This document shows, one piece after another, positions 1-64,000 of a stretch of 64,000 nt of DNA. The stretch is from the NCBI GenBank assembly GCA_918797485.1, contig CAKKNE010000004.1, forward strand, positions 3,782,001-3,846,000. Direction: 5' to 3'. The stretch's first letter is position 1; every line of letters starts with the position of its first letter. The notes under the pieces were generated by a model. It searched no databases, was not told the origin of the DNA, and was given only the letters and a program-made list of their open reading frames with translations. The position numbers and the translations under genes were made by a program. The stretch comes from Pelagomonas calceolata. Lineage: Eukaryota > Sar > Pelagophyceae > Pelagomonadales > Pelagomonadaceae.

Positions 1-423
1 GGTCGGATTCGGGCGAGGACGAGGACGAGGACGAGGGCGAGGCGCTCGTGATCGCCCTGTCTTTGCTTGCGTCCCATCCGGACGCCGCCGAGCGCGACGC
101 GAGCCGCGCGCTCCTACTCAAGGCTGCGACGAACCTGACGAACGACCCGTGGAATCCAGTGTGGAGACCCCCACCACCACGCCATCGAGCAGACGTCGCG
201 TCGATGGCGTGGAGGTCGACGCGCTGATCCGCACAGGTCCAACCCAAAATACCGGCGCCTCCGCAAGCAGAACGCCATCATCGCCGCCAAGGTCGTCAAA
301 GTCACTGGCGCCCCGGAGGTCCTCGCGTGCATGGGTTTCGAGGACGCGGGCGACGAGTGGGTCGTCCGCGACGACGACGTGTGGCAGCGCGCCGCTGCCA
401 CCGCGGCCGCGCTGAAGATGTAG
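1..423 (+). CDS. PUB-domain protein, C-terminal end (5-prime end outside window)
   Basis: Exons 3-148 and 237-423 join in frame (phase 2) to give an acidic stretch followed by a PUB-like helical domain ending at the TAG at 421-423. The run NLTNDPSNPKYRRLRKQN bridges the splice junction and matches the start of PUB domains (NP..KYR.IR..N); the core continues with VTGAPEVLACMGFEDAGDEW. PUB domains bind the C-terminal tail of the p97/Cdc48 ATPase, and occur in PNGase and UBX-type adaptors, so a ubiquitin or ER-quality-control role is plausible by family. Upstream domains are outside the window, so the exact orthologue cannot be named. The intron is an introner element and the frame is continuous only if it is removed. 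Confidence 0.7.
149..236 (+). mobile_element. Introner-element intron (88 bp) in PUB-domain gene
   Basis: The donor GTGGAATC is the left target copy and the right copy after the acceptor is GTCCAACC, 5 of 8 identical, so this is a decayed insertion. The element ends in CGCACAG and holds the family hairpin (CCACGCCATCGA near 177, TCGATGGCGTGG near 201). Removal joins GACCC to GTCCAAC and restores the PUB reading frame, which supports the boundaries. Confidence 0.8.
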
Positions 424-456
424 TCTGTTGTCCTAAGAAATGTTCATGCGCTGTTC

Positions 457-1465
457 TTAAGAACTGTTACCATGACAGGCGAGGCGCCGCCCCATGAACG
501 CCTCGCGCGCCAGCTCGTAGAAGGCCGCGTCGGCCACGTTTGCCGCGACGAACGCGGCCTCGCGCGCGCGGTCGACCTTCGCGGGCGCGCGGCGCCGCGG
601 GCCGTCGCGGCCGCGGTGGTGCCGCGACAGGCGCAGGAAATGCGACGGCAGCAGACGCTCGAGCTCGGCCGCCGTCGCCGTCGGCCGGTCGCTCAGGCCC
701 ACCAGCAGGAAGCGCTCCTTCGCCCGCCGCCAGGCGATCTGCGCCGCCTCGGCGCCGCGAACTCCGGCGCACGCATCGCCGCAGAACCACGCGACGTCCG
801 CGTCGTCGTCGACGTCGAGCACGTTGCGGAAGCACGACGAGGCTTCCGCGGCCAAACAGTCGTCGACCTGATGGAGCACGCGCCGCGGGCGCCCCGCGAC
901 CTGCTGCGCGTAGCGCTCGTGCGGGTCCCTCGCTATTGCAACGACGAGCGGCGTCCGCCCGAAGCTAAAGTCCGTCGCCGTCGTCGCCAGGACCACCGCG
1001 TACTTGTTCGACTTCAGGAGGCACTTTTGCGTCGCTCGCGCGTCGAGCCAGGCGCAGATCGAGAAGTCGTTCGCGACCGTGAGGGGCTGCATGGCTCGTA
1101 CGAGTCCCTTCGTCGCCGGCGCGGCGTCCGGCGGCGCCGCCAGCACGACGAGCCGGTGCGCGCCCGACTTCACGGGCGGGCAGGCGGACGCCGCACCCGG
1201 TGCGTAGGGCCTCGACGGCACCGCGACGGCCCGCGCCCGGTCGTAGAGTTCGGGCTCGAAGTCGTGCGCGTGGACCACAATACAACCATCCTCCGCGACG
1301 GTCTTGTCCTTCAGCACCGTCGCGCGGCAGTGGCGCACGTTGCGGCCTGTGTGGAAATCAAATTTTACGGCGCGTTCGTCCTGAATCCTCCACGCCATCG
1401 ACGCGACGCCTGCTCGATGGCGTGGTCGTTCTCGTTCCACACAGGTCGCGACAATTATAAGTCAT
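457..1465 (-). CDS. Sulfotransferase-family-like protein
   Basis: Exons 1465-1453 and 1346-457 (minus strand) give about 300 residues. Visible family signs are TPLVVAIARDPHERYAQQ, matching the RDP-x-ER segment of 3-prime-phosphate-binding loops in sulfotransferase-2 type enzymes, then KERFLLVGLSDRP...LERLLPSHF and, near the C-terminus, DAAFYELAREAF, all in the usual family order. The N-terminal PAPS-binding loop (KxGST) is missing, so the gene may be 5-prime truncated or have unseen upstream exons; the ATG at 1465 is only the first in frame. It faces a TPR fragment that begins right beside its start. Function is inferred: transfer of sulfate to a glycan or small molecule, perhaps inactive. 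Confidence 0.5.
1347..1452 (-). mobile_element. Introner-element intron (106 bp) in sulfotransferase-like gene
   Basis: On the plus strand it reads CTGTGTGGAAATCAAATTTTACGG ... in the standard element direction, but the host gene is on the minus strand, so it is spliced in the inverted orientation. Minus-strand donor GTCGCGAC (left target copy) pairs with GCCGCAAC after the acceptor CACACAG, 6 of 8 identical. It contains the hairpin CCACGCCATCGA / TCGATGGCGTGG near 1390-1424. Confidence 0.8.
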
Positions 1466-1500
1466 GGGCAATTTCTCCGCGACGAGGCCGTGCGACGCGC

Positions 1501-7487: not shown

Positions 7488-7924
7488 GTTTGTATGCGCA
7501 TCGGGCAACGGAGACTGGCACCTGAAACTGGTGCCGACAGGTGAGACGAAGCGCGTTGCTTGTATGATCGATCGGTTGAGCCATCTGGAGTCCTTCCTGC
7601 CGGCTGATTCGTACACACATCTAGCGTACAACGGCACTAGCCAAGATAAGGCTATCTTTCAGCTCTCAAGCACAGTTTTTGCCGGCGTCCGGTAGACTCG
7701 CAATCGCATCAGAGCTCAAAAAAAACATGCTCAAAAGGTCCCAGCCACCTACCGGAGGGCCTGTGCGAGCCGACAGCGCTGCGCGCGCGCGTCCGGTCGA
7801 GCAGCTTGCTGCCAAAGAGGATCGGATCGGAAAACACACATCTACGCGCGCGCGGAGGCCTCGCATTCTCCACTCGAGCAGTCATCTAACGCACGCACCC
7901 CCCGCAGACACCAAACAATCTAAA
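7488..7924. other. Divergent spacer between C2HC gene and first LHC gene
   Basis: About 440 bases shared by two divergent starts. It holds one palindrome-type site at 7621-7641; otherwise no RNA gene or repeat was seen. The last 20 bases before the LHC ATG (cccccgcagacaccaaacaa) resemble those before the second LHC gene. Confidence 0.5.
7621..7641 (-). promoter_or_regulatory. GCTAG palindrome variant
   Basis: CTAGCGTACAA then CGGCACTAGC, with CTAGCG and CACTAGC ends as in the family consensus but a diverged centre. It is 134 bases upstream of the C2HC ATG and about 285 upstream of the first LHC ATG. Confidence 0.45.
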
Positions 7925-8560
7925 ATGGCCAAGCTCGCTCTCGCCCTCCTCGCCGCCCCGGCCGTCGCCTTCGTGGCCCCCGGCCAGCAGGCCGCCTCCA
8001 AGGTCGTCGTCAAGGGCGACATCGGCGTCGACCCCGGGCCGATCACCCCCTCGGGCTTCATGTTCGAGGACACGGAGGGCCTCGCCCGCCGCCGCGCCGT
8101 CGAGATCAAGCACGGCCGCATCTCCATGATGGCGTTCCTCGGCATGATGGTCCAGGAGCTCGGCATCACCTTCCCCGGCTCCATGACCCTTGACGGCTCG
8201 GTCCAGTTCTCGGACATCCTCAAGGACGGCATGGGCTTCGCGGCGCTCTCCAACGTGCCCACGTTCGGCCTCGCCCAGATCCTCCTCTTCGGCGGCATTG
8301 CCGAGACCGTCGCCATGCCGGCGTCGCAGTACACGGGCGGCCCGCAGAACCTCCCGGGCGGCTACGACGGCTCGGCGGGCACCATCCCCGGCGGCTACCC
8401 GTTCACGGAGCAGATCACGGACCCCGCCGCGCGCACGCGCGCGCTCACGTGCGAGCTCCAGAACGGCCGCGCGGCCATGCTCGGCACGTTCGGCGCCATG
8501 TGCCACTCGTGCGTCGACTCGTGCGACCACCACTTCTTCTACCCGATCACGCACAACTAA
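7925..8560 (+). CDS. Fucoxanthin chlorophyll a/c-binding light-harvesting protein, 211 aa (copy 1)
   Basis: The leader MAKLALALLAAPAVAFVAP is an ER signal followed by the AF-V type cleavage site used for import into complex stramenopile plastids. The mature protein has LHC helix 1 with the chlorophyll-binding ELEL-like motif RRRAVEIKHGRISMMAFLGM (residues about 56-75). Helix 3 is TCELQNGRAAMLGTFGAM (about 177-194), the paired Glu/Arg salt-bridge helices of the superfamily. It collects light for the photosystems in the thylakoid. The C-terminus ends in an unusual cysteine cluster CHSCVDSCDHHFF. A second copy encoding the same protein lies 1,188 bases downstream. The frame extends upstream of the ATG, but without LHC similarity. 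Confidence 0.95.
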   Translation: MAKLALALLAAPAVAFVAPGQQAASKVVVKGDIGVDPGPITPSGFMFEDTEGLARRRAVEIKHGRISMMAFLGMMVQELGITFPGSMTLDGSVQFSDILKDGMGFAALSNVPTFGLAQILLFGGIAETVAMPASQYTGGPQNLPGGYDGSAGTIPGGYPFTEQITDPAARTRALTCELQNGRAAMLGTFGAMCHSCVDSCDHHFFYPITHN

Positions 8561-9112
8561 GCTGCGTCGTCGCCGAGGACTCCGAGCTCGGCGCAAGTGT
8601 CGCGCTTATGGACGCTCGTCCCTCGCTTGCCGGTAACAACAATCTGTGACATCGAACCAGTTCTACGAGCCAGTATCTTCAGGAGCCCAGCGGGCGGCGC
8701 ATGATTCGGACCTTTTGCTGAACCAGCGTGCGCCACGTGTCCGCCCACGAGCTCCGACCCGCGGCGCGCTTCGGACGACGCCTGCGGCCGCCCGCGCGGC
8801 CCGCCTACCGGGTCCGGACTCTCGCATAGATGCGAGCTGTGATCCTCATCTCAACCAAACAAAAACTCGTAAGTAGATTCCGCCTGCCCAAACCCCGCTC
8901 CTTGCCTGCGCGGCCGCGCGAGAGTACCCTGGCCCGTCCCTCTCCGCGCTGCAGCAAGGGGGCAGCGCGCGCGCGCGCACAAGCGGCGCATGGGGCCCGA
9001 AATCCGGGGCAGCCACTTTTGCAATGGCACGGCGCCTCGCGGCCGCGCGTCGGCGGCGCGTACCTCACGCGCGTAGCTCACCCGCCGCGCCCCCCGCAGA
9101 CAACAAATCAAA
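8561..9112. other. Spacer between the two LHC genes
   Basis: About 550 bases holding the 3-prime end of copy 1 and the promoter of copy 2. The block ending CGCTTATGGACGCTCGT near 8605-8622 recurs after copy 2 near 9804-9820, so the duplication includes 3-prime UTR. No palindrome site seen. Confidence 0.5.
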
Positions 9113-12319: not shown

Positions 12320-13071
12320 ATGGCCGGCAAAACCTTCGCCGACGACGAGCAACCGCTCCTCAATGAGCAGAAGCCCAAGTCCTCGCTGACGCGCGTCGCC
12401 GTCCTCGCCGTCGCGTGCTCGTTCGTCCTCGGTTCCGTGGCCGGTACCGTAGTCCACCGCGGCGGCCACCCGTGTGGAATACGCGCCGCACGCCGTCGAC
12501 GCGACGTTGGCCCCGGGAATCGAACACGTGGTCCAGGAGGCACCACGCTAACGAAGAAGAGAAGTTAAGCGGCCCGTAGCGCGTTATAAGTTGTTTTCCC
12601 CACACAGGCGGCCGCGTCGGAGCCATGACGCGCCTCGACGACGTCGCTTCCAAGGACATCACCGCCGACCAGATTACGGGCGAGGACGCGCCCGCCCCGG
12701 CCCCGGCGCCCGGGTCCGTACCCAAGCAGATGCCCACTAGCTGCTATGAAGGGGGTCATCTGGCGGGCTATGGAACGGATCTCGCCATGGAGGGAAAGTC
12801 TTCCGACTGCTCCTTTATGAAGTTTGCTCCTGCTACGGACTGGGCTACCTTTGGGGATGGATCTTATGACGATAGTTGGATCTTATGCCTCTTCCCCGAA
12901 GGTGTCCACGCAGCGCCGGGGTGCCAACAAGCGCATTGCTCCTCGCCGGAGGTTTGCGCGAGAGAGGGCGGCGAGAACCTGGGGCAACCCAAGCACCACG
13001 ACGGCGCGCTCGCCTGGTCGACGGGATTCGCGGCGGTGACGGTCGCGGCCTCGACGGTCGCCTTCCTCTAG
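12320..13071 (+). CDS. Small secreted or membrane protein with hydrophobic ends, 201 aa
   Basis: Exons 12320-12461 and 12608-13071 join in phase 1. Residues about 24-45 (TRVAVLAVACSFVLGSVAGT) form a signal anchor after a polar acidic start with an EQPLL motif, a dileucine-like sorting signal. The middle is extracellular-looking, with six cysteines (TSCYEGG, SSDCSF, WILCLF, GCQQAHC, EVCARE). The last 17 residues (STGFAAVTVAASTVAFL) are hydrophobic and end the protein, as in GPI-anchor signals or tail anchors. I do not recognise the family. If the donor is instead the GT at 12474, four extra residues (GHPC) are added and the frame stays open. Confidence 0.6.
12462..12607 (+). mobile_element. 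Introner-element intron (146 bp), GC-AG, in small membrane-protein gene
   Basis: The left target copy GCGGCCAC and the right copy GCGGCCGC agree at 7 of 8 bases. The element ends in TTTTCCCCACACAG. By the seamless model the donor is GC at 12462; an alternative GT donor lies at 12474, four codons downstream. The hairpin core is weak here (GCCGTCGACGCGACG near 12490). Confidence 0.65.
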
Positions 13072-13339: not shown

Positions 13340-15400
13340 TCAAGCCTCGCCCTCCTCGCGGTCGGCGGCCGTCGCCTTCGTCTCGGCAGCCGTGGCCGCG
13401 CGCTCCTCGGCGTCCCACGCGGCGGGCACTGCCGCCGGCAGGCTGAGCCCGTCCTCGTCGAGGTGGAGGTGCTTCGCGAGGCGCCGCGCGAAGGCCGCGC
13501 CGCGCGTCGCCGCGTCGGTCGCGCTCGCGTCGCCGAGCCAGGCCGGCGCGTCCTCCGGGAGCTCCTCGGCGCTCCACGTCGTCACCTTCGTCGACGCGGC
13601 CGTCTGGGGCTCGAGGAGCCACGCGTCCAAGACGACGGGGCAGCGCTGGTGCGTCGTCGTCTCCGGGACGAGGGCCGACGTCACCGAGAAGCGCAGCCGC
13701 AGCCACGCGCCCGCCGCGCACCCGAGCGCCGGCGGCGCCGCGCGCCACGCGATTAGGACGGAGCGGTCGTGCGGCGCCTGGAAGGGCGCCAGGACCCCGC
13801 CCTTCTCGTGCACCAGGGCCGTCCGCTGGTCGTAGCGGTAGACGACGCGCCGCTGCACGGTGTCGCGCGACGCGTGCAGCGACACGTGCGGCGGCTCGTC
13901 CAACACTGTTACTAAAGCACCAATCGGCCGCGCGACGACGCACGACGAGAAGACCAAAGGTGCGTCGGCGTCGGCGAAGGCCCGCCGGCCGCCCTTGCTC
14001 GTATACGTCGCAGGAGAAGCCCAGGCCGGGTCATCACATAAAGTCTCCTCAACCACCAAATCCCAGGCGTGCAGCGCTTGTAAATTAGGCGCGTGCTTGA
14101 CGGCCTCCTTCGCCTTCTTCTTCACGAACCTTTTAACCTGCTCCGCGTCGGACGGGAGTTGCGGCGACTTGCGGAGCGCGTCCTCGGCCTTCTTGCGTAA
14201 TCTCTCCTCCTCGGCCTGGGCCGCGGCGGCGGCCTTCGCCCTTTCGTCGGTCTCCGCGAGCTGCTTCCAGGGGTCCGCGAACGTGTCCGTGTCGAGCATG
14301 GACTTTTCCAGATCACTAATCTTCTGGCCGTCGTAGGTCACGCCCGAGGCCGCCTCGCCCGGGAGGTACTTCCTCAAAACGCCCATCATGTAGCCGCCCT
14401 TGTTTCGGATCGACGAGTGAAGGTCCTCCATGGCCTCGCGGAACTCGTGCAACGCGGCCATGGCGTGCTTCGGGTTCAGTCTCAGTATAGTCTTGATGTG
14501 GCGCGTGTCGATGTGGCCGAGGCAGCCGGGGATCGCGAGGATCGCCTGGCGGTAGCTCTCGGGCAGCGGCTGGAGCAGGGGTAGGACTTCGTCGATCTCC
14601 GCCTGGGAGGCCTTGGGCGGCGGCTTGCGCTCGCGCTCGTTCGGCAGGCCGAAGCCCAGGGCCTTTTGCTTCGCGTTGAACTCGGCGATGGTCGTCACGC
14701 CGGCCTGCTTGAAGAGCTCGGCCATGCGGTCCGTGTCGCCGCCGGAAGGCAGGACGCGCGCGCCCTCGGGCACCTTGGCGCCCTCGCGTATCAACTGCTC
14801 GGGCACGGCGTTGTCGTCGCCGATCGCTAATCCAGAAGAAGGGTCGATGCCCGCGTGCGAGTAGCGGCAGTTGTCGCCCCGGAGGCACTTGCCTGTGCGC
14901 AAATCAATCGGTGAGTCGGGTGCAACGCGTCGATGGCGTGGCGGAGACGCGACAATTTCATTTATGCACTGGAACTTGCCGTTCATGAAGTCGCGGCACA
15001 CGTCGTTGAACCGCGGTTGCTGTCTTCGCGGCGGCGGCGGGCCGCCGTAGCCTCCGCCGCCGTAGTTGCCCGGGCCGCCCCCGCCGCCGTAATGGCCTCC
15101 ACCTCCGCCGCCCCAGCGGCCTTCATCGCGGCCTCCGGGCGGCGGCGGCCGGTAGCTCGGCTCGGGCGTCCGGCCGCGCCGCCCGCGACTCCGTGACCGC
15201 GACCGGCGGCGCCGCCCGCGGCTGCGGCTGCGCTCCCTTCGCCTATCGGAGCCCCGCCGGTCCCGGCTCCGCGACCGCCGGTCGCGCCGGCTCCGCTCCC
15301 GGTCGCGGTCGCGTCGGTCGCCGCCCCCGCGCTCTTCGCCTTCGGAGCGTCGGCGCTTGCGCTCCGTTCCTTCTTCCTTCGGCGGTTCCTGCTCGCCCAT
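13340..15400 (-). CDS. RS-rich CCCH zinc-finger protein with hnRNP-Q-like domain, 657 aa
   Basis: Exons 15400-14980 and 14892-13340 join in phase 1. Residues 1-75 are an Arg/Ser/Asp repeat region typical of splicing factors, followed by a Gly-rich linker. The splice junction rebuilds a CCCH finger, VCRDFMNGKCLRGDNCRYSH (C-x7-C-x5-C-x3-H), which is broken if the intron is retained. A helical module (LNPKHAMAALHEFREAMEDL..IRNKGGYMMGVLRKY, about 280-325) resembles the acidic N-terminal domain of hnRNP Q/R. The C-terminal 250 residues look globular and are unrecognised. RNA processing in the nucleus is the likely role. The gene diverges from the unknown gene at 15788 across a palindrome site. Confidence 0.75.
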   Translation of the reverse strand: MGEQEPPKEEGTERKRRRSEGEERGGGDRRDRDRERSRRDRRSRSRDRRGSDRRRERSRSRGRRRRSRSRSRGRRGRTPEPSYRPPPPGGRDEGRWGGGGGGHYGGGGGPGNYGGGGYGGPPPPRRQQPRFNDVCRDFMNGKFQCINEIVASPPRHRRVAPDSPIDLRTGKCLRGDNCRYSHAGIDPSSGLAIGDDNAVPEQLIREGAKVPEGARVLPSGGDTDRMAELFKQAGVTTIAEFNAKQKALGFGLPNERERKPPPKASQAEIDEVLPLLQPLPESYRQAILAIPGCLGHIDTRHIKTILRLNPKHAMAALHEFREAMEDLHSSIRNKGGYMMGVLRKYLPGEAASGVTYDGQKISDLEKSMLDTDTFADPWKQLAETDERAKAAAAAQAEEERLRKKAEDALRKSPQLPSDAEQVKRFVKKKAKEAVKHAPNLQALHAWDLVVEETLCDDPAWASPATYTSKGGRRAFADADAPLVFSSCVVARPIGALVTVLDEPPHVSLHASRDTVQRRVVYRYDQRTALVHEKGGVLAPFQAPHDRSVLIAWRAAPPALGCAAGAWLRLRFSVTSALVPETTTHQRCPVVLDAWLLEPQTAASTKVTTWSAEELPEDAPAWLGDASATDAATRGAAFARRLAKHLHLDEDGLSLPAAVPAAWDAEERAATAAETKATAADREEGEA
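14893..14979 (-). mobile_element. Introner-element intron (87 bp), GC-AG, inside a CCCH finger
   Basis: Minus-strand donor GCAAGTTC and post-acceptor GCAAGTGC agree at 7 of 8 bases. The donor GCAAGT is an excellent match to the consensus for GC-type donors. The element ends TTGATTTGCGCACAG and has half of the hairpin (CCACGCCATCGACGCG). Removal restores the finger spacing. Confidence 0.85.
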
Positions 15401-23594: not shown

Positions 23595-24738
23595 TTAAGG
23601 CCGGTCCACGTCCGACGGGTTCGCCGCGCGGGCCGCCTCGACGCGCGGGTCCTCGACGATTGCCGTCGCCGGCGTCAGCGCGTCGGCGAGGCGTCCGCGC
23701 GGCGCTAGACGCGTAGCAACGACGCTTTCGCCCTCGACGCGCTTGAGCCATATCCACGGTGCTCCAGTGCCTGTAAAGTTCGGAACGTCGCGGTCGGCGA
23801 GCGCCGTCCCTGGCTTGCCTTCTAAAGACAGAATCGAGTAGTCGGCGCCGTCGACGACGAGCGCCGCGAAGTGGTCGATGCATACGCCCGTTTCCCCGTT
23901 GTGCCGGCGCATCATCGCGTCGAAGTCGTCGGCGCCTTGTGTGGAAATCAAATTTACGGCGCGTTCGTGCTGAATCGCCGCGTCGACCTCCACGCCATCG
24001 ACGCGACACCTGCTCGATGGCGTGGCGATGTCGGTTCCTCACCCGGAGCCAGTGCACCCGACTCACTGGTTGATTTCCACACAGGTCCGCACGGAGCACG
24101 CCGTTTGACTGTGTCCGGTCGTGGTGCGGGCAGCACAATCCGGGCAAGACTCCGAGCCCCCCGCACCGGATGTACTCCCAGGGCTTTGCGTCGCTGCCGG
24201 ACGCGCCCTGCGTGCTCGCCTCGGCAGAACCGCCTGCGATCATGGCGTCCGCGTAGGATTCGGGGTCCGCGCTATCGCTGTGGCCGGCGTCGAACCAGCA
24301 GATGGCGCCCGCAGACCCGCCGGTTAGCACGCATCCCCGCGCCGCCGCCTTTCGCAGCTCCTCGTCTAAGCCGAAGCGCTTCCAGCGGTCCACCGCAAAC
24401 AGTGTGTTTCCGCCGCTGACCAGCACGATGTCAGCGCGCGCCAAAAGAGCTTCGACGGCTCCTGGCGTCGGTGGCATGCGCGCGACGTCCAGCGCCTCGA
24501 CGGCGACGCCGCGACTGCGAAATCCGCTCACCTGCTTCTCGCGGTTCGCGGCCAGGTCGTACGTCGCCGTGCCGAGGTAGCACAGGAGGCAATCCTTCGC
24601 CGGCTTGCTTGTGAGCTTGAGGACGGCGTCGACGATTGCCGGCTCGTGCATGATTGCGGAACCTGAACCACCCAGGACGGCGCGCAGCGCTGTTGTTGGC
24701 CATGCAGCAGCCATTATTATACAGCAGAGGGTGCGCAT
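23595..24738 (-). CDS. Peptidase S51 (dipeptidase E / cyanophycinase-like), 328 aa
   Basis: Exons 24738-24093 and 23935-23595 join in phase 1. After a hydrophobic leader (LCCIIMAAAWPTTALRAVLG), LGGSGSAI opens the fold. DIVLVSGGNTLFAVDRW and VLTGGSAGAICWF (nucleophile Ser near residue 138) give the S51 signature, followed by GLGVLPGLCCPHHDRTQSNG, the conserved histidine region. The exon junction reads VLRADDFDAMMRRH and the second exon ends with a beta-rich segment. S51 enzymes cleave dipeptides with an N-terminal Asp or the Asp-Arg polymer cyanophycin, by a Ser-His-Glu triad. The leader suggests secretion or organelle entry. The DIVLVSGGNT order fits dipeptidase E slightly better than cyanophycinase. 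Confidence 0.85.
23936..24092 (-). mobile_element. Introner-element intron (157 bp), inverted, in S51 gene
   Basis: It has complete terminal repeats on the plus strand (TGTGTGGAAATCAAATTTACGG near 23938, TTGATTTCCACACAG at 24070-24084) and the full hairpin. Minus-strand donor GTGCGGAC and post-acceptor GCGCCGAC agree at 6 of 8. It is shorter than the calpain copies but shares their left 100 and right 30 bases. The acceptor reads CACAAG instead of CACAG. Confidence 0.88.
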
Positions 24739-25663: not shown

Positions 25664-28289
25664 ATGGGCAGCCAGCAATCCGTCGCCGGCGAGCTCCAGG
25701 GGCTCCACGAGAAGTGCGTCGACGCGCTGGCAGAGCCGAGCAAGGGTGCCCAAGATGCCGCCCGGCTGCGGGCCTTGCTCGGCGACGTCCTCACCGCGAT
25801 CGGCCGCCTCCAAGGCGTCGAATCCGACGACGAGGCTCTGAGAACCTCTGATGGGGTCTCTGAGAACCTAGATCTCGGCAACGACGATGAGGGGGACGAG
25901 GACGAGGACGACGCTGTCGACGAGCTAGCGCCCGTGGATGCTGATGCGGTAATACGCCGCGGCGAGGTGTGGTCGGACCCTGTGAGGAAATCAACCGTGA
26001 GCCATGGCGCCTGAAATATTGCGTGGACCTTTGTGGACCTCCTCGCCATCGAACCGACGCGGTCACAGCGACAACGTCGCGTCGATGGCCTGAGAACTCC
26101 ACGCCATCGAGCAGACGCAGCTACGGAGACAACATCGCGTCGATGAGGTGGGGCGCCTGAAATTTGTTTTCCATACAGGTCGGACCCGACGTTTCCCGCG
26201 AACGAAGCTTCGCTCGGCTTGCGGGACGACGTCGACGAGGGACGGGGTCCTGAGTCTCGGGGCTGGGGCGGCGTCGCTTGGGAGCGGTGCGGGGAGCTCT
26301 TCAAACAATGTAGGCTGTTTAAGAACGCACCGTCGCCGTTTGACGTCGCCCAAGGCGGCCTCGGGGACTGTTATCTCCTGTGCGGAAATCAAATTTACGG
26401 CGCGTTCGTCCTAAATCGCGCGTCGACCTCCACGCCATCGACGCGGCACTTGCTCGATGGAGTGGCGGTGTCGGTTCCTCACCGCTCGACGGAACCAGCG
26501 CGGCCACGTCATCGCCGAGAAATGACTTAGCGAAGAATTATTGGGTGCACCCGACGCACTGGTTGATTTCCACACAGGTTATCTCCTCTCGGCTCTGTGC
26601 GTGCTGGCTGAGAGGCCGGCGAGGATTTACAAGCTCTTCGAGACGACGGAGTTGAATACCGCGGGCCTCGTCGGTGCACGACTCTACCTGCACGGCGAGG
26701 AGAGACTCGTGTTGGTCTGTGCGGAAATCAAATTTACGGCGCCTTCGTCATGAATCGCCGCGTCGACCTCCACGCCATCGACGCGACGCCTGCTCGATGG
26801 CGTGGCGATGTCGGTTCCTCACCGCTCGACGGAGCCAGCGCGGCCACGTCATCGCCGAGAAATGACTTAGTGAAGAATTATCGTGCACCCGACGCACTGG
26901 TTGATTTCCACACAGGTGTTGGTCGACGACCAGCTGCCGACGCGGGGCGACAATCTGTTCTTCGCGCGCTCGCGCACGGAGGGGGAGATGTGGGTTTCGA
27001 TGTTCGAAAAAGCCTTCGCCAAGGCCTACGGCTCCTACGCGAACATCGAAATGGGGTCGACCGCGCGCACTCTGGAGACGCTCACCGGCGCTCCGTCGAC
27101 AACAACAACAATCCGCGGCCGCGACGCGGCGGCGGCGACCGCAATGTTCGAGACGATAGACGGGGCGCTAAAAAGGCGCCACGTCGTCTGCCTGGGAATG
27201 GGAGATCACCCGCAAGATCTGCAGCGGCTGGTGGGGATCGTCGAGAAGCACGCCTACGCCTGCCTAGGCTCCGCAGAAGTCCAGGGCGAGCGGCTCGTGA
27301 GGATACGGAACCCCTGGGCGGACGGCACGGAGTACCGTGGGAAATGGTCCGACGACAGCGAAGAGTGGACGCCCGAATTGCGGCGGGACCTGGATCACGG
27401 CGTCGCCGCCGACGGTGTGTTCTGGATGGCGATCGAAGATGTGGTCGGCCTGTTCGATGATGTCGTGGTATGTGCTGTGGACGACCACGCTCACTACTGT
27501 CACTCGCCGCGCGCGGCGTTGCCGGACGCCAAGACGCGGTTGCTAGCTTTCGAGCTGCGGCCGCTGCGTACGGCCCACGTCGTGGTCACGTGTCGCCAGC
27601 CGGACACACGCGACGACGACGCCGCAACCGGCTACCACGCCGTGCGCGCGGCCGTCTACCGCTTGCCCGATGCAAACTCGCCTGCTGCAAAGCGCGTCGG
27701 CGCGTCGGGTGGCGAAGACCACACTTACCTGGTGGCCCGTGACGTCGTCGCCGCTGACGCCACGCTACACGCGAATCGATCGTACATTGTCGTTGTCGAG
27801 ACGTTCGAAGATCGCGAGCGGCTAGGTCCATTGGATGGGACGTGTGTTGTTTCGACGTACGGTGGCGCGACCTGCGCCATCGCCCCGCTCGCGCCAAAAC
27901 AGGGGGACCTCGCGCAAGCGACGTGCGCCCTGGCGTTCACGCGCTTCGCCAAGGACGCGCGCGAGTCGAACTACGGCGACGACGCGCCCAGCGTGACGCT
28001 GCGCACCTGGTCACGCCGCGGAGAGAGCCTGTACACCATGCTCTACGCCAACGCGTCGGAGGGCCTGGTTCTCAAGGAAAGGGTTACATTCGAGCTCGAG
28101 AACTGTCAAGTCTACCGCGCCACGCTCGACGCCGACGGCGACGCCGTCGTCGCGCTCACCGCCGTCGACCCAACCGTCAAGGTGACGTTGGCGCCCGGCG
28201 CGGCGACGCTGCTCCTCATCCGCAAGTCACCGGACGCGCAGTCGTTCGGCTACAACTACCGCCGAGCGTACTCGATTCGCGGGCGGTAG
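25664..28289 (+). CDS. Calpain-type cysteine protease, 667 aa, four exons
   Basis: Exons 25664-25971, 26179-26369, 26578-26708 and 26916-28289. The short acidic N-terminus is followed by a CysPC domain: WSDPTFPANEASLG, then GGLGDCYLLSALCVLAERP with the catalytic Cys at 167, EKHAYACL with His at 322 and RNPWADG with Asn at 342. All three catalytic residues are present. The region after residue 380 is beta-rich and could be one or two C2-like calpain beta-sandwich domains (LLAFELRPLRTAHVVVTCRQ; SYIVVVETFEDRE; AATLLLIRKS). There is no EF-hand or membrane domain. Calpains are calcium-regulated cytosolic proteases. Three introner insertions interrupt the protease domain within 1 kb. Confidence 0.9.
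25972..26178 (+). mobile_element. Introner-element intron 1 of calpain gene (207 bp), compound
   Basis: Perfect 8-bp target duplication GTCGGACC on both sides; donor GT from the left copy, acceptor CATACAG. Termini are diverged (CTGTGAGGAAATCAA, TTTTCCATACAG). Inside are two separate hairpin cores and a direct repeat GGCGCCTGAAAT near 26009 and 26151, suggesting one element inserted in or duplicated within another. Confidence 0.85.
26370..26577 (+). mobile_element. Introner-element intron 2 of calpain gene (208 bp)
   Basis: Perfect 8-bp duplication GTTATCTC. Left end CTGTGCGGAAATCAA, right end TTGATTTCCACACAG, full hairpin near 26430-26465. It splits the codon of the catalytic cysteine (T at 26369, GT at 26578). 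Very similar along its whole length to intron 3. Confidence 0.93.
26709..26915 (+). mobile_element. Introner-element intron 3 of calpain gene (207 bp)
   Basis: Perfect 8-bp duplication GTGTTGGT. Same ends as intron 2 and shared internal blocks (CACCGCTCGACGGA, CCACGTCATCGCCGAG, AATGACTTAG). Phase 0; removal reads ERLVLVDDQLP without gap. Confidence 0.93.
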
Positions 28290-47732: not shown

Positions 47733-48565
47733 TTACGACCGGTTGGGGTAGGGGACGATCTCGGCCTGTGCGACCGGCTCCGGCTCCGGAGCGGCCGAGG
47801 AAGCCCTCAGCGGCGCGGGCTCGGGCCGCGACCACCGCCAGCACTGGAGCATCAGGAACAGTCCGAGTATAATCACTACGACCAAGGTGCTGTAGAAGAG
47901 GGCCTTGATTGGTTTCTCATCGTAGATGCAGCCTGCGCGCGGGCAACGGTTGTGGGCGTGTCTCCGAGGTCTCGCGGAGTGTCGTGTCCGAAAATCTGAT
48001 TTCCACGCCGCGCTCAGGCAGTGCTCCTGCTTGCTCGCGCAACACAATTTCTCTCCACTCGCGCCGTGGCAGACGATGCTCGCTTCCTTCTTCAACAGAC
48101 CGCACGAGTGGATCTCCCAACAAGAGTCGCTCGGGTCGAACGAGGCCGTGTCCGCGCAGGACTTGAGGCGCCGTCGCTCGGGCAGAACTTCAAGCCGCCG
48201 CGGCGAGGATACCTCGGGCAGGACTTCAGGTCGGACGAGCGTCAGGTTCCGGAACGCGTCCTCGGCCTTCAGGTGGACGCCGCGGCTAGCGAGCGCGACC
48301 GAGACGGCGCACTCCGTCCCGTGCTTGGCGTGGATGCCGAGCGGCGCGCAGACGCGCCGCAGCCGCGCCTCGTCGGGCGCCGCCGCGCCGAGCCCGAGCC
48401 GCTCGCCTGTGCGCAAACCATACCGTCGCGTCGATGGCGAGAAGCGCCGCGAGATTTGATTGCGCACTGCCACTCGCAGCCGTCGTCCGCGAAGACGTCC
48501 CGCCACACCTCCGCGTAGGCCTCGGCCGCGCCGCTGGTCAACGCGGCGAGCACGCGGCGCGGCAT
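47733..48565 (-). CDS. Cys-rich single-pass membrane protein, 224 aa, three exons
   Basis: Exons 48565-48478, 48406-48020 and 47932-47733, both junctions in phase 1. The long luminal or extracellular part has many cysteines (DSCWEIHSCGLLKKEASIVC, GASGEKLCCASKQEHCC). A single membrane helix follows (ALFYSTLVVVIILGLFLMLQ), then a short Pro/Glu tail. Joining exon 2 to exon 3 gives EHCCIYDEKPIKALF. The N-terminus MPRRVLAALTSGAAEAYAEV is not a clear signal peptide. It lies 155 bases downstream of the receptor-like fragment at 48720-49331, on the same strand; the two could be parts of one transcript, but nothing proves it. Family unknown. Confidence 0.55.
47933..48019 (-). mobile_element. Probable old introner intron (87 bp), GC-AG
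   Basis: Minus-strand left copy GCCTGAGC and right copy GCTGCATC agree poorly. The element retains GCGTGGAAATCAGATTTTCGG as a decayed left end and ends CGCGCGCAG. Its length is a multiple of three and the frame stays open through it, so retention cannot be excluded. Confidence 0.5.
48407..48477 (-). mobile_element. Introner-element intron (71 bp), GC-AG, shortest copy
   Basis: Left copy GCGAGTGG, right copy GCGAGCGG, 7 of 8. Ends CAGTGCGCAATCAAAT and ATGGTTTGCGCACAG; hairpin core reduced to CGCCATCGACGCGACG. Nearly a minimal element of two ends plus core. Confidence 0.8.
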
Positions 48566-52179: not shown

Positions 52180-52244
52180 GTTTAGTAATCTGCTTTGGCG
52201 GCGTGGAACGATGCTTCGATATTCTGTTACGCTAGGACTCGTGG

Positions 52245-54857: not shown

Positions 54858-54880
54858 GCTAGCGTTGTGTGACACACTAG
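54858..54880 (-). promoter_or_regulatory. GCTAG palindrome variant
   Basis: GCTAGCGTTGTG then TGACACACTAG, 128 bases before the plus-strand ATG at 55009 and about 200 from the minus-strand ATG at 54659. The 350-base divergent spacer holds nothing else. Confidence 0.6.
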
Positions 54881-55008
54881 GAAGCTTGGCCGGGCAAATT
54901 TGCGCGGCCAGAATTCGGCGTTTCACTGCGTGCTACGAGCCTAACGTTTGCAGAAGACTGCTTAGAAACGTCTACAGGCCAGCGCTCCAGGCACCAGGAG
55001 GGTGAAGG

Positions 55009-55650
55009 ATGCGCTACCTGGCCACCAATGTTGTGCTATTGGCCCTGACACTGCAGCCAGCATTTTCTCAGCAAATGCGCAGGAGTAGTGGCAGAAGACA
55101 CTTGCGCAGGCGATACCTCCCGTCAGACCTCGACGACGCCCGAGAGACCGACGACACGATCGAGTGGGACGATACGACCATCGAGGACGACACGCGGGTT
55201 GTCGGCCCGCGGTGGCGCCGCCGCCCCTACGGCGTGATTGATGACGACGGCTGGGCGGGCGACGGGGAGCCGGTGGATCCGGGCGCGGAGCTGGCTCTTG
55301 TCCTATTTCTAGTCATTGTCATCTTCTGGCTGGCCGTCGGCTCGGCGTTTGCGCCCAGGCAGCGCTACACCGGCGCGACCCTTTATGGCGAAACGTATGA
55401 TTACTATTCGGAGCCCTCGTTCTACTACGGCTCCTCCTACGCGTACGAGCCGGCCTACGTCGTGCCGCGGCGGTCCGGCTGGGGCTGGGGCTGGGGCTCC
55501 AGCTGGGGCGGAGGCCACCACCGCGGCGGGCGCGAGCGCGTCGAACGGCACCGCCACGTCGAACGGCATCATCACACCGAGCGACACCACCACGGTGGCG
55601 GCCATCACGGCGGTGGCGGAGGCCATCACGGCGGCCATCATGGCCGATGA
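55009..55650 (+). CDS. His/Gly-rich single-pass membrane protein, 213 aa
   Basis: Signal peptide MRYLATNVVLLALTLQPAFS, an acidic and basic luminal part, then one membrane helix (ELALVLFLVIVIFWLAVGSA). A Tyr-rich segment (GETYDYYSEPSFYYGSSYAY) and a Trp/Gly block (GWGWGWGSSWGGGHH) follow. The last 40 residues hold about 16 histidines in HRHVERHHHTERHHHGGG and similar strings. The tail could bind metals such as Ni, Zn or Cu, or it may be a low-complexity wall or scaffold part; neither is shown. I recognise no family. Confidence 0.65.
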   Translation: MRYLATNVVLLALTLQPAFSQQMRRSSGRRHLRRRYLPSDLDDARETDDTIEWDDTTIEDDTRVVGPRWRRRPYGVIDDDGWAGDGEPVDPGAELALVLFLVIVIFWLAVGSAFAPRQRYTGATLYGETYDYYSEPSFYYGSSYAYEPAYVVPRRSGWGWGWGSSWGGGHHRGGRERVERHRHVERHHHTERHHHGGGHHGGGGGHHGGHHGR

Positions 55651-55727
55651 CTCTAAAAATAATTTGTCACATATAGTATTCACCATCGAAACCGTCGAAG
55701 AAAATAGGAGTTTTCTTGTAACATCAC

Positions 55728-57025
55728 TTAGATCATCATGCCCGCGAGAGCGCATACCCCGAAGCCGGCCGCGCCGCAGAACCAGTACGCGGCGACGGCT
55801 TGAGCTTGCGACAGCTGCGCGACGGCGGGCACCGCGCGGGCGAGGCGTCCCATGCGCCACGCCCAGACCGGCCCGACGGGCGCGACGACGACGGCGACGA
55901 GCGCCGGCTTGGCCGCTTTTCGGAGGACCGAGCGCACGCGTTTCGCGAGCACGCCCTTCGGCGCGGGCTCAGCGAGGAGTAGCGGCGGCGGCGGCGCGGG
56001 TTTCGGCGGTGCGCAAGCCAGGCGCCTTAGCGTGAGGTGGACGCATGCGCCGGGCGCGACGCGCTCCGGCCACGCGATGCGGCGCGGCCGAGCCGCCTTG
56101 GCGGGCTTGATGGCGGGCGGCGCCCGGCCCAGGGCGGCGCAAGCAACGAAGGCGACCGCAACGGCGGCCGCGACGACGCCGAGGCGGCGGCGGCGCGGCG
56201 GAACAAACCTGTGTGGAAATCAAATTTTGGACGCCCCCACGCCATCGACGCGACCCCATAACTGCATTGATTCCACACAGGCACGAACGTGGCGGCGCCC
56301 GGCACCGTGATCGGAGAAGTAGCAACGCTGACGGTCTCGACGGTCGCTGCAGCAGCAGCGTCACAGAAGAAGCGCGCCTTGACGGCTTGCGCGAGGCGGT
56401 CGGCGAGGTTGATGGACGGCGGCCAGACCTTGGGCGGCGACACCTCGGGCACGTGCCGCACGGACGGCGTCGTCAGCGGCGGCGACGAGGCCTTCGGCTT
56501 CACGGTCTTCGGCACCTCGACCTCCGGCGGCACGCACGTATCGACGGAGCGGCGCTGGGGCGCCCGGAGCGGCGCCGGCGCGGCGCGCGGCCGGTAGGGG
56601 CTCGTGATGGTGTGGCGCCGGCGCGCCGCCTTGGCGGGCGACTTGCTCGGCGGGGGCACGTTTTCCTTGTCGACGTCGTGGGAGAGCTGCTTCGGCCGGC
56701 GCGGCGGCGGCGCGTTCTCCTTGTCGTCGGCGTAGAGCCGCTGTCCTACCGCACAGAGCGCCGCCGACGCGGCCGCGCCGTAGCGCTTGCTCAGGTCGCG
56801 GAGCAGCGCGTCGTGGCGGCCGTCATAATGCTGCAGCACGGTTTTGAGGCGGTCCGGCGCCGCGTTCGCCGGGTTGTGCTGCTCGTAGAACGCCCGGAGC
56901 GACGCCTCGGTCACGACGACGGCGTTCGTTGTGTCTTGCGCGCCGGTCGTGGGCTTGAGGGCGCGGCGCTGCCGCGCGAGGAGTTCGGGCGTCGTGTTGG
57001 CGCGCGCTTGAGCCGCGGCCTCCAT
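55728..57025 (-). CDS. KEN-box protein with C-terminal hydrophobic region, 405 aa
   Basis: Exons 57025-56289 and 56208-55728 join in phase 2. The N-terminal module (ASLRAFYEQHNPANAAPDRL..VLQHYDGRHDALLRDLSKRY) is a short helical domain seen near the N-terminus of many algal proteins (FYxxxxPxKxxxVxxxLxxYxGxExxL). Two KEN degrons follow, DDKENAPPP and DKENVPPPSK, in a Pro/Lys-rich region. The second exon gives a basic segment and two hydrophobic stretches (LGVVAAVAVAFVACAALG; AAYWFCGAAGFGVCALAGMM) that could be membrane helices. KEN boxes suggest cell-cycle-timed destruction by APC/C. Without splicing the frame runs through the element into unrelated sequence. Confidence 0.65.
56209..56288 (-). 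mobile_element. Introner-element intron (80 bp) in KEN-box gene
   Basis: Minus-strand left copy GTTCGTGC, right copy GTTTGTTC, 6 of 8. Ends CTGTGTGGAATCAATG and TTTGATTTCCACACAG are intact; the hairpin is half present (GTCGCGTCGATGGCGTGG). It shows that ends plus half core are enough. Confidence 0.85.
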
Positions 57026-58501: not shown

Positions 58502-60893
58502 TTAGTCAGAGACCACAAACGTCATGAGCATCTGGTCCGCGGCGACGACGTCCCCGACGTCGGCGAGGAGCTCGTCGACGACGACGCGCGCCTCGGCCCG
58601 CAGGACGTTCTGCATCTTCATCGCCTCGACGACGGCGAGCGGCTCGCCCGCCTCGACCGTGGCCCCCACCTCGGCCTCGAAGCGCAGCAGCGTGCCGGGC
58701 ATGGGGCACGCGAGGCCCGCGGCCGCGGCCTCGGCCGCCGCTGGCTTCATGTGCTTTGACAGCGCGTGCGTTTGTGGTGTGCGCACGGCCGCGTCGACGC
58801 GGACGCCGCGCACGCGCAGCGCATGATCAAAACCCGGCCGCGCATCAGTTGAAACGTACTGGCACGCGACCGCACCGTCATTGAGTACCAGCGGCGTCGC
58901 GAGCGGCGCGGCCCAGGCCGCTTTATCAAGCTCAATTTGATGTTCTTCTCCCTCATACCTAACGGTGTAGGCTCCATCAAAACCATCGACCTCAAACACG
59001 AGCTCGGCGTCCGCGCGCGCCGTCCTCAGCAAAACGACCTGGGGCCCCGCCGGTTGTAATTCGCCCCGCACTTCTTTTGAAGCAGCGTCAACACCAAGAA
59101 CTAAACAAGCGAGCTTTGCCAGATCTTGCGGAGCCATGTTTGTCAGTACACTCCCTTCGTCGAACCCACCAGGGTAGTGCTCCTCGATAAACGCCGTCGT
59201 GTAGTCGCCGCTCAGAAACGCTTCATGACTGCACACGTCCCGACAGAACGGCACGTTGTGCACCAGACCCTCGACCACATAAGCGTCCAGCGCGCGGCGC
59301 TGCGCGTCGAGCGCGGCCGCTCGGTCCTCGCCCCGCGTGATGACCTTGGAGATCATGGGATCATAAAAAATCCCGACCTCGCTGCCGTCCTCGACGGCCG
59401 CATCCACTCGAACATCGCTCGCGTGAAAGAACTCGATCGACGCGGGCGGGTTCGCGTAGGCGGTCAGCGACCCCGTCGACGGCACGAAGCCGCGCGCCGC
59501 GTCCTCCGCATAAATACGCGACTCGATGGCCCAGCCGACGGGCGGCACGCTGCCCACTAGTTCTGATGGTAAAGCCTGCCCGTCGGCCACGCGCAACATC
59601 AACGCCACCAAATCCTGATCCGAGACGGCCTCGGTCACGGGGTGCTCGACCTGCAATCTCGTATTCATCTCCAAAAAATAAAAGTCCGCCGTCGTCGCGT
59701 CGACCAGCATCTCGACCGTGCCCGCGCTCGTGTAGCCCACCGCAGTCGCGAGCTGCGCGGCCTCGGCCTGCATCCTCGCTCGCAACTCGGGCCTTTGATG
59801 GACGAAGGGCGACGGCGCCTCCTCGACGACCTTCTGATTGCGGCGTTGGACGGAGCACTCGCGCTCCGGGAAGCAGGCCACGTTGCCGTGCGCGTCGGCC
59901 ACGAGCTGGATCTCGACGTGGCGCGGCGCCGCCACGAACTTCTCCACGAGCAGCCGGTCGTCGCCGAAGCTCTTTTTGGCCTCGTCCGTCGCGAGGGCGA
60001 AGCACTCGGCGACCTCGCGCGCGTCGCGGGCCACGCGCATGCCCTTGCCGCCGCCGCCCGCGCTCGCTTTGAGCATGACCTGTGTGTCGTTGCTTTCTTC
60101 TTTCTGCGCCCCCTGTTCCCGACGGCGGCGTCTCTAGCGGTCGCGGCGATGGCGTGCTTTTGTGGGGCAATGGACTTGCGCCACCAGCACGCCATCGACG
60201 CGACGTGTCTTGCCTCCACGCCGTCGAGCCGAAGGCGCCCTCGCTAACGCCGCGTCACGTACCGGGTAGCCGATGTCCTCGGCGACGGCGACGGCGTGCT
60301 CCGCCGACTCGACGACGCCGTTGAAGCCCGGGATCACGCTCACGCCGGCCGCCTCCGCGATGCGCTTCGACTCGACCTTGTCGCCCATGGCGTCGATCGC
60401 CGCGGCCGGCGGGCCCACGAAAGTAATGCCCGCCTCGGCGCAGCGCCGCGCGAAGGCCGCGTTCTCGGAGAGGAAGCCGTAGCCCTGCGTTTGTTTTTTT
60501 GTTTTCTACCTCTCGCGATTTTCCCTGTTTCTCTCTCGCGGTGGCGTCGTCCAGACCGGTGTGACCGCGTCGATGGCCAGCGTCCCCCAGACGCCATCGA
60601 CGCGCCACAGAAGAGTGTTTTGAGACGTCGCTAGGCACGGGATGGATGCAGTCGGCGCCCGTCGCCCGTGCCGCTTCCAACACCGCGTCGGCGTCGAGGT
60701 AGGACGTCGTCGCCGCCGACCCGCTGCCGACCTGGACGGCTTCGTCGGCATATTTTACATGCTTGGCGCGCGCGTCGGCCTCGCTGTGGACCGCGACGGT
60801 GTCGAGTCCTAACGCGCGGGCGGAGTTCATGACGCGGCAGGCTATCTCGCCGCGGTTGGCTACTAACAGGCGTTTGAGGTTGGTGAGGGCCAT
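58502..60893 (-). CDS. PCCA: Propionyl-CoA carboxylase alpha subunit, 684 aa, three exons
   Basis: Exons 60893-60639, 60484-60263 and 60079-58502, both junctions in phase 0. Biotin carboxylase: [40 protein letters not shown] across the first junction, [20 protein letters not shown] (ATP loop) across the second, and [22 protein letters not shown]-type middle domain follows. The biotinyl domain ends [10 protein letters not shown] and [11 protein letters not shown] with the biotin-accepting Lys near 647. Together with a beta subunit it carboxylates propionyl-CoA to methylmalonyl-CoA in mitochondria; methylcrotonyl-CoA carboxylase alpha is the main alternative, but the middle domain and tail favour PCCA. 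No long presequence before [16 protein letters not shown]. Confidence 0.92.
60080..60262 (-). mobile_element. Diverged introner intron (183 bp) in PCCA gene
   Basis: Donor GTACGTGA at 60262 and acceptor CGACACACAG at 60080. Two core pieces remain (ACGTCGCGTCGATGGCGTG and CACGCCATCGCCGCGACC) but target copies no longer match well. Splicing restores the ATP-grasp loop exactly. Confidence 0.75.
60485..60638 (-). mobile_element. Diverged introner intron (154 bp) in PCCA gene
   Basis: Donor GTGCCTAG at 60638, acceptor AAACAAACGCAG at 60485. Core pieces GCGCGTCGATGGCGTCTGG and CTGGCCATCGACGCGGTC remain; the terminal repeats and target duplication are gone. Splicing joins IHP to GYGFLSEN. Confidence 0.75.
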
Positions 60894-61684: not shown

Positions 61685-61888
61685 GTCCCAACACCGTTAA
61701 GTCACAAGTACCCAGCCGACGCCGCGAACCCAACTCATAGAGGAAAGGTACTTTAAGCGGGCACAGAACCCGACCCTGCCAGTATCAGCGACGTTATTAT
61801 CGCAGTGCAGTATACGAAGCTAGTAGCCGAAAAGCCACTTCCTTAGATCCTAAAAAAACGAACGACGGGGGAGGAGGGGATATCATGT

Positions 61889-63429
61889 TCAGATCAGCCC
61901 GTACGCCGACAGCGTCTGCTGCGCGCCGAGCAAACCGAGGCCGACGCCGAGCAGCGCCAGCATCAAACACCCGACGCGCCCGACCGCGCCGGCGTTCGGC
62001 CAGCGGATCATCGCCGGCAGCACGTAGACCACGAAGCCCCCGAGCAGCGACCCGGCCAGCCCCGCGGGCAGCCCGATGTCGCCCGCCGCGAGCGCGACCT
62101 GCGCCGTCAGCAACACCAAGCACAGCGACCCGAGCGTGCGCCGCGCGCCCCGCCGCTTCTGGAGCGACGTCTCCCACGCCGGCGGCAACAACCGCGTCGC
62201 GGAATCGTAAAAGCCGGAAAACACGAGCGGAAAGCCGAAGACGATCGACGCGCCCGTCGCGAGGCGCGCGACGCGGGCGAGCGCGTCGGACGCGCCGTAG
62301 TTGAGCAGCACGTTCGGGCCTGCGCGTTCGGGGGCGCGTCGACGGCGTCGAGGTGTGGCGCGTCGATGGCGTCGAGAGGAGCGTCGCGTCGCTGGCGTCG
62401 AGGTGGCGCCTCGGGCCGGACGCCATCGCCGCGCGAAGGCACAACACAGAAGGCACAAAAAAAGAAAGGACGCGGACGCGAACGCGCCGCGTCGCCGAAC
62501 GTCGCCTTGCCCGCCGCCATGACGCCCGCGTACAACGCGACGAGCACCGTGAACGACAGGAACGTGACCTGGCGGAAGCGCCGCCGCGCGCCGCCGTCGC
62601 CGCGCGCCAGCGACTCGGCGAGCGGCGGCGCGTTGTAGTGCGCGACGTAGGCCAACCCCAGGTTCGCGGACAGCACCAATGCTTTCGCCGAGACCCCGCA
62701 GCAGCCGCCTGTCGCCTCCGACGCCACGGCGCTCGCTCTGTGTATGCCATCCTCAGCATAAGTGCCGTCGACCGCTCGATACAAAATCGCAAAGGCCGTG
62801 AGGAAGACGGACGCGCAGCCCATCAACGAGAATTTTGCTAAAGTAGCCAAATCCAATTGACACAAAGGAAACAAGGCCAACAAAGCCACGGCGTAGACCG
62901 TGATTGATGGTGGAATATCTAGATATTTCTCCACCAGAGGCCCAAATACATCCCCGACGATGCCGTGGTAGATGACGGCAGCAGCACCGCAGAAGGCCGC
63001 GACGGAAGCGTCCACGGCCCAGGCGTTCGCGCCGACGGCTTCGGACCAGAGCGAGCGCACGTCGGACGCCTGGTAGCGCAACGCATCCTCACCCAACAAC
63101 AGGAACGACCCGCACGACACCGCCCCGAGGAAGGCCACGAGTCCTATGGCGGGGAGGTAGCCCGTGCCCGCGGCGCCCGCCGTCAGCGTCAAGAAGCCGC
63201 AGCCCGCCACGTTATTCACGAGGTTGAAGGACGCGCCCAGGACGTCCGTCCGCTTCTGCACGACGACGGCGCGCGGGTTGCGCGTGACCGTTTTTTTTGT
63301 GCTTCCTCCTCTTACGGTGAGCGCGCCATGTTGCGGGCGCAGGCTCCTCTTGAGGGGTGGGAGGGCGGCGACGCGTGCTATAGCTGCAATAGCTACATAG
63401 AGCACCAGCCTTGCACCGGTGCGCGGCAT
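61889..63429 (-). CDS. Amino-acid transporter (AAAP/SLC38-like), 458 aa, two exons
   Basis: Exons 63429-62484 and 62319-61889 join in phase 1. After a leader rich in hydrophobic and basic residues (RLVLYVAIAAIARVAALPPL), the AAAP opening is SFNLVNNVAGCGFLTLTAGA (normal form N-x-x-x-G-x-G-x-L). About ten hydrophobic segments follow, including GYLPAIGLVAFLGAVSCGSF, SITVYAVALLALFPLCQLDL, KFSLMGCASVFLTAFAILYR, TFLSFTVLVALYAGVMAAGK and CLMLALLGVGLGLLGAQQTL. The junction reads ATFGDAARPNVLLNYGASD, a typical loop of the family. I chose the ATG at 63429; the longer frame to 63750 lacks coding character. Substrate and membrane are not known. Confidence 0.8.
62320..62483 (-). mobile_element. Diverged introner intron (164 bp) in transporter gene
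   Basis: Donor GTTCGCGT at 62483, acceptor CGAACGCGCAG at 62320. At least four partial cores (CCATCGACGCG, CGTCGACGCG and similar) are strung together near 62340-62400, as if the core had amplified. Target copies do not match. Confidence 0.7.
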
Positions 63430-63779
63430 TGCTCCGTTTGCAATTCGCGCTGCTCGCTCGTTTCGAATGGCTTTTTTAGCAGTCTCTACAGCCTTGCAGC
63501 TGCAGCCTCCGACGCGCGCCGCGTCGTGTGATGGATTAGCTTGCAAACCCAAAGCCTCTCCGCCCACCCGAGCGGCCCTACGGTGGAGAGTCGCCCACCC
63601 GAAAGATCCCTCGGCCTTCGACGGATTGTCGTGTCTTCGAGACGGCTGACTCTCCGAGAGCGATTTGGCAGAGGCTGGTGACCAGGCACTCAAGGGCAAC
63701 CGGCTAAAACGCGATCGCTGCTGCAATCCACGTCCGTACGCATCGGTCACAGCACGTATTCTTCACCAACTTACATAAA
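63430..63779. other. Divergent spacer, 350 bases
   Basis: Shared by the transporter and the last gene. It has a C/T-mixed low-complexity stretch and no GCTAG palindrome or RNA gene. Confidence 0.4.
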
Positions 63780-64000
63780 ATGGCGAAACTCCTGGTCCTC
63801 GCCGCTTGCACGAGCGCCCTGGTGCAGCAGCCTGCAAGACGCATCAGCCGGCGCGCAATCAAAGTTCAGGCGCCCAACGCCATCGACGCGATGCTGTACC
63901 CGTAGCTGCGTCTGCTCGATGGCGTGGAGTTGTCGGGCCATCGACGCGACGTTGTCGCCGTCGACCGCGTCGGTTCGATGGCGTGGAGGTTCACTGGTTG
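63780..64000 (+). CDS. First exon of a plastid-targeted protein (continues past window)
   Basis: The ATG at 63780 starts MAKLLVLAACTSALVQQPAR, followed by RISRRAIK. The short hydrophobic leader and basic stretch match the bipartite leaders of the LHC genes, though nothing downstream shows the mature family. Coding probably stops at about 63863 with a GT at 63864, because sequence after it is introner. The mature protein lies outside the window. Confidence 0.5.
63864..64000 (+). mobile_element. Introner-element intron, right end outside window
   Basis: From GTTCAGGC it runs through two hairpin cores (CGCCATCGACGCGATG near 63880, CTCGATGGCGTGG at 63919, CCATCGACGCGACG at 63939, TTCGATGGCGTGG at 63977). 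It ends at TTCACTGGTTG, the standard sequence just before the right terminal repeat in the calpain copies. Confidence 0.75.

Follow-up and report, generated by a model that had tools for sequence, protein, structure and literature searches.

Known introner systems

The introners of Micromonas pusilla and Aureococcus anophagefferens were reportedly described by Huff, Zilberman and Roy in 2016, with one splice site said to come from the element and the other to be co-opted from the duplicated target. Here, a family of intron-forming elements is described from a 64-kb stretch of Pelagomonas calceolata DNA (contig CAKKNE010000004.1, positions 3,782,001 to 3,846,000; "the window" denotes this whole stretch), in which 13 complete element introns (e1-e13) and one partial element at the window end (e14) are listed. 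Element ends, target copies, insertions in both orientations and restored protein domains are all observed, and the family is very probably a non-autonomous DNA transposon, or miniature inverted-repeat transposable element (MITE), which makes an intron when it inserts into an exon. An earlier reading of the letters alone (the sequence-only reading), whose observation is largely borne out, had counted 14 complete introns and one partial one; the partial copy stood, while a fourteenth complete copy was not identified.

Introners have been reported as 548 families in 175 genomes, with GC donors ranging from 0 to 50% by family (Gozashti 2022, PMC9860276). The introners of A. anophagefferens and M. 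pusilla are likewise short and non-autonomous, with inverted and direct repeats (PMC10228655, PMC7789003), and likewise insert in both orientations (PMC10228655), orientation-independent intron making being credited to Huff 2016 by a review (PMC10228655). Canonical splicing motifs have been described for the Aureococcus elements (PMC7789003), whereas three of ten donors in the window are GC. Symbiodinium microadriaticum introners also carry terminal inverted repeats (TIRs), a 3' site in the element and a 5' site from the duplication, although their target duplications are 4 bp long rather than the 8 bp seen in the window (Gozashti 2022, Fig. 2B). Family 4 of Aureococcus sp. shares the 8-bp duplication, but both of its splice sites lie in the element and the transcript gains 12 bp (Gozashti 2022, Fig. 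2F), in contrast to the seamless splicing predicted here. When compared by description with P. calceolata introns (PMC9481584), a likeness in length is found for e6-e8 (207-208 bp), unlike the other window introns (71-183 bp). Further literature on the topic includes PMC12768974 and PMC12730881.

The sequence-only reading was right that introners are known from Aureococcus, and seamless splicing is itself a published mechanism. The window holds a well-preserved further example of introners, and the family, likened here by description, may be the very one already published for Aureococcus and Micromonas. Its value lies in an added example with testable details, namely the GC donors, the unequal ends, the bias in phase and the order in which copies decay. 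Intron birth is readable in it, recent and decayed copies occurring together within 64 kb, the recent ones with perfect duplications; from the conserved host domains it can be seen that the protein would stay intact if splicing took place at the copy boundary.

The element family and its copies

The terminal repeat CTGTGTGGAAATCAA was scanned through the window with at most 3 mismatches, giving 13 matches against 0.33 expected, which bears out the shared terminal repeat of the sequence-only reading. In a pair scan, outward-facing ends 50-420 bp apart were scored together with their outside 8-mers (maximum 28); six places scored at least 24, the best score across 20 random first-order sequences being 22, and weaker places were taken only where the core was present or the host frame was restored. 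The core CGCCATCGACGCGAC was matched 23 times with at most 2 mismatches, against 2.55 expected and a maximum of 5 in 20 random sequences. Twenty of these 23 matches fall inside the 14 listed introns and 3 outside, a figure that is partly circular, since e11-e13 were listed partly for their core. The copies are as follows, each intron including its left (donor) copy, with identities given as matching bases between target copies.

149..236, + strand, intron e1: left copy GTGGAATC, right copy GTCCAACC, 5/8; host with PUB domain
1347..1452, - strand, intron e2: donor copy GTCGCGAC, right copy GCCGCAAC, 6/8
12462..12607, + strand, intron e3: donor copy GCGGCCAC (GC), right copy GCGGCCGC, 7/8
14893..14979, - strand, intron e4: donor copy GCAAGTTC (GC), right copy GCAAGTGC, 7/8
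23936..24092, - strand, intron e5: donor copy GTGCGGAC, right copy GCGCCGAC, 6/8; host S51 peptidase
25972..26178, + strand, intron e6: target copies GTCGGACC, 8/8; two core palindromes; host calpain
26370..26577, + strand, intron e7: target copies GTTATCTC, 8/8; host calpain, within the GD|CYLL motif
26709..26915, + strand, intron e8: target copies GTGTTGGT, 8/8; host calpain
48407..48477, - strand, intron e9: donor copy GCGAGTGG (GC), right copy GCGAGCGG, 7/8; donor-side end CAGTG
56209..56288, - strand, intron e10: donor copy GTTCGTGC, right copy GTTTGTTC, 6/8
60080..60262, - strand, intron e11: host propionyl-CoA carboxylase alpha; two core motifs; acceptor end ACACACAG; copies 2/8
60485..60638, - strand, intron e12: same propionyl-CoA carboxylase alpha gene as e11; core present; copies 2/8
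62320..62483, - strand, intron e13: host amino acid transporter; three core-like motifs; copies 3/8
63841..64000, + strand, partial element e14: left copy presumably GCATCAGC (GC); hand-placed element start CGGCGCGCAATCAA

The element start of e5 was shifted by hand one base upstream, where the copies agree at 6/8 as opposed to 1/8 at the scan position. For e12 and e13, boundaries come from the gene finder described below and family membership from the core only. The partial copy e14 runs past the right end of the window and has a 138-bp match to e6 at 90% identity.

The marks of a MITE are present, with TIRs and a fixed 8-bp target duplication (8/8 in three and 5-7/8 in seven of the 13), and the introns, at 71-208 bp with the left copy included, are too short for transposase coding. 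Their density is 14 copies per 64 kb. The e7 and e8 introns are 93% identical, and an interior is shared by e2, e5, e7 and e8, which lie in three different genes. All four copies are oriented alike relative to the plus strand while their hosts are two minus and two plus genes, and therefore both ends would serve as acceptor. Predicted RNA folding of e8 was stronger than in all 200 shuffles (z -4.70); that of e6 was weaker (z -2.45, with 5 of 200 shuffles as good). Exact patterns gave 0 matches to the A-end, B-end and core in a viral contig collection, and 0 to the A-end in a genome contig collection.

The three core motifs outside the listed introns are located at 46745 (2 mismatches), 52389 (0) and 54654 (2). 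The latter two stand just upstream of genes and could be either relics within 5' untranslated regions or matches by chance.

Target copies and predicted splice sites

Both terminal repeats and 8-bp copies were recognised in e1-e10, the copies being identical at 8/8 positions in three, 7 in three, 6 in three and 5 in one. The 8-bp target copies of the sequence-only reading are consequently found in ten of the 13 (at least 5/8) and not in e11-e13. Of the left copies in e1-e10, seven begin with GT and three with GC, upholding the donor claim for the clear cases at 10/10; left and right copies both start with GT or GC in all ten, against 19.6% in coding sequence (p ~8e-8). As the donors of e11-e13 were placed by means of the gene finder or the protein frame, GT there does not count as independent evidence. 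When right copies of all 13 introns are considered, GT or GC starts 12/13, again against 19.6% (p 3e-8), while at their far end, read in antisense, GT or GC is found in 5/13, against 20.6% expected (p 0.11). The bias therefore follows the sense strand, an imbalance suggesting that it is the splicing-competent insertions that survived. At the other boundary, the element's own final CAG, as had been claimed, provides the acceptor in nine of e1-e10, with e5 departing from it.

A mechanism can be proposed on this basis. A cut-and-paste MITE with TIR CTGTGTGGAAATCAA and 8-bp target duplications would land in an exon and become an intron there. Read outward, each inverted repeat is TTGATTTCCACACAG, resembling a 3' splice site in its pyrimidine-rich stretch followed by CAG, and therefore an acceptor would be available in either orientation; TTGAT is a possible branch site. 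The donor would be the start of the duplicated target, provided that it reads GT or GC on the sense strand, and insertions lacking these would presumably be purged by selection. Splicing would then take out the left copy and the element, leaving the right copy and therefore an unchanged protein. Mobilisation would probably be due to a transposase acting in trans.

Splicing judged from host proteins

Splicing was judged through the proteins, the left copy and element being removed and the product aligned to solved homologues or Pfam families. Against solved homologues, six junctions are free of gaps: three in calpain (e6, e7 and e8, calpain-8 2nqa), two in propionyl-CoA carboxylase alpha (e11 and e12, 3n6r) and one in the PUB protein (e1, PNGase 2hpj), whose host scores 58.9 bits for Pfam PUB. 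Pfam lends support at three further junctions. In e5 the S51 score is 76.9 bits for one exon and 86.3 when spliced, and in e13 the Aa_trans score is 42.1 bits for the upstream exon and 85.9 when spliced. The e4 intron, with donor-side end CAGTG, sits in a CCCH zinc finger, and zf-CCCH_4 scores 19.8 bits for the unspliced protein against 36.6 in the spliced region alone, which is a shorter query. Homology thus backs nine of 13 junctions, and for these the claim of an unchanged host protein is upheld; for the other four the evidence is an open frame. In e2 the frame is open once spliced and shifted if the copy is retained, in e3 splicing yields a 201-residue open reading frame (ORF), in e9 the frame is open, and in e10 it is open with boundaries given identically by the gene finder. 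As judged at the protein level, splicing at the copy boundary would restore the host protein.

Alternative explanations

Retention of the insertions in mRNA, leaving genes broken or with added residues, is scarcely credible. Six introns (e4, e5, e9, e10, e12 and e13) hold no in-frame stop in the retained stretch, which would favour retention, but retention would give a frameshift in nine of the 13, a stop in three and 29 extra residues in one; only in e4 is the frame kept with no stop, and there the zinc finger is split. Exact removal of left copy plus element, on the other hand, gives gap-free conserved domains in six cases. It is very unlikely that the repeat family invaded ordinary older introns instead of creating them. 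In e11-e13 a core is found with no recognisable target copies, and the e12 flanks are unlike a target duplication, as such an invasion would allow; in e1-e10, however, the boundaries coincide with the element end and the target-copy boundary, with three copies at 8/8, whereas invasion would place target copies within the intron and not at its edges. Spread through RNA by reverse splicing, as proposed for fungal introners, would account for similar introns in different genes, but TIRs, 8-bp target copies and both orientations are marks of a DNA transposon, making this route extremely improbable. The GT and GC starts might also reflect a target preference of the transposase rather than survival of splicing-competent insertions, which is considered unlikely. 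Right copies have G at position 1 in 13/13 and C at position 8 in 9/13 (p 0.013, uncorrected), mirrored as in a palindromic preference, and the C may be a weak target preference; the antisense frequency (5/13, p 0.11), set against 12/13 in sense, speaks against this being the cause. All copies lie in or near genes, and preference and selection are therefore not fully separable here.

Several observations weigh against intron creation by a MITE as proposed. The target copies of e11-e13 are unrecognisable (2, 2 and 3 of 8), the acceptor of e5 is AAG, and the right flank of e12 starts with GG, so that its donor differs from a simple target copy. Intron phases 0, 1 and 2 occur 3, 7 and 3 times, phase 1 making up 7/13, where 41-45, 20-25 and 35%, respectively, would be predicted from the supply of GT and GC in 16 single-ORF genes. 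The outer ten bases are conserved alike on the donor side (87/100) and the acceptor side (85/100), although the terminal triplet is better kept at acceptor (9/10) than at donor (6/10) ends. Finally, no transposase is among the listed Pfam matches of the scanned window segments.

Superfamily and unequal ends

Target duplications of 8 bp occur in further transposon superfamilies besides hAT, whose ends are of the CAGNG type and whose target preference is nTnnnnAn. The duplication length of the window elements is that of hAT. Donor-side ends (n=10) are CTGTG in six, CAGTG in three and CCGTG in one, and right copies have T at position 2 in 6/13 and A at position 7 in 3/13; a hAT-like identity, as put forward in the sequence-only reading, is a possibility. 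The main element type has CTGTG and CACAG ends, and could splice in both orientations. Unequal ends, read in the sense direction, are found in e1, e4 and e9, with CAGTG on the donor side and CACAG on the acceptor side, and therefore only one orientation could splice. It is a tentative and rather doubtful suggestion, resting on three copies, that the window holds an intermediate in the path from transposon to intron maker, in which an ordinary element with CAGTG and CACTG ends would have been altered slightly at one end, and this alteration would subsequently have been copied onto the opposite end to give a two-way introner. The plainer alternative is that donor ends decayed independently.

Other introns in the window

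Pfam was run on 39 unspliced segments and 6 spliced proteins from the window. A domain above the curated cut-off was found in 23 genes, 17 of them uninterrupted frames and six holding nine introns (e1, e4-e8 and e11-e13), all assigned to the family, with e12 and e13 assigned by core only. The count of uninterrupted genes is limited to Pfam-supported genes, and for partial matches (MAT1, FAM194, ANF_receptor, RRM and MFS) absence of introns covers the matched part only. The claim that no other introns occur holds as far as these 23 genes cover it. That one family supplies essentially all introns is a wider claim than 64 kb from a single contig can establish, the core-bearing introns e11-e13 with no recognisable copies being among the reasons.

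An in-house gene finder blind to the elements proposed 38 introns, of which 11 overlap listed elements and 27 do not. Both boundaries of e1 and e10 were reproduced, as was one boundary of several others; the call at 63302-64000 overlaps a listed element by position only, on the opposite strand. Sixteen of the 27 off-list calls were treated as false, these stretches being open when unspliced and several lying within intact Pfam genes. One of the 16, 47933-48058, adjoins a 3-mismatch match to the terminal repeat and is a borderline case. The other 11 off-list calls are not open when unspliced:

11856-12263, gene-finder intron
24690-24836, gene-finder intron
25444-25590, gene-finder intron
30215-31058, gene-finder intron
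31233-31550, gene-finder intron
41887-41986, gene-finder intron
48573-48723, gene-finder intron
52152-52431, gene-finder intron
54602-55178, gene-finder intron
55303-55518, gene-finder intron
55651-55757, gene-finder intron

As a group, these are taken for calls on the wrong strand or for fusions of adjacent genes, and introns outside the family are possible among them.

Host sequence and other features

The light-harvesting protein that was compared with PDB entries, one of two in the window, resembles fucoxanthin chlorophyll a/c proteins most closely, a likeness that fits a chlorophyll c alga. The GC content is 58-75% in 2-kb bins, values of 67.4% for A. anophagefferens and 63.6% for Pelagomonas being given in PMC9481584. 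Nothing was returned for the window by ARAGORN (bacterial code) or by Rfam at gathering thresholds. Further features were noted as follows.

7914-8213 and 9102-9401: tandem light-harvesting genes (chlorophyll a/c type), a 300-bp stretch being 99% identical through recent duplication or gene conversion
~24994-25500, - strand: conserved-looking frame which seems to change frame near 25430 beside a C run, which may be due to an indel in the assembly or to a minor feature of gene structure
34610-36517, + strand: uninterrupted gene related to splicing factor U2AF 65 kDa (best PDB match at E 7e-9) that carries long ~18-bp repeats in which Arg, Asp, Gly and Tyr are abundant
41900-43590: gene-poor region of lower GC content (58.4% in the 42-44 kb bin), with no ORFs of 150 residues except 43198-44241 (- strand) and genes at its edges

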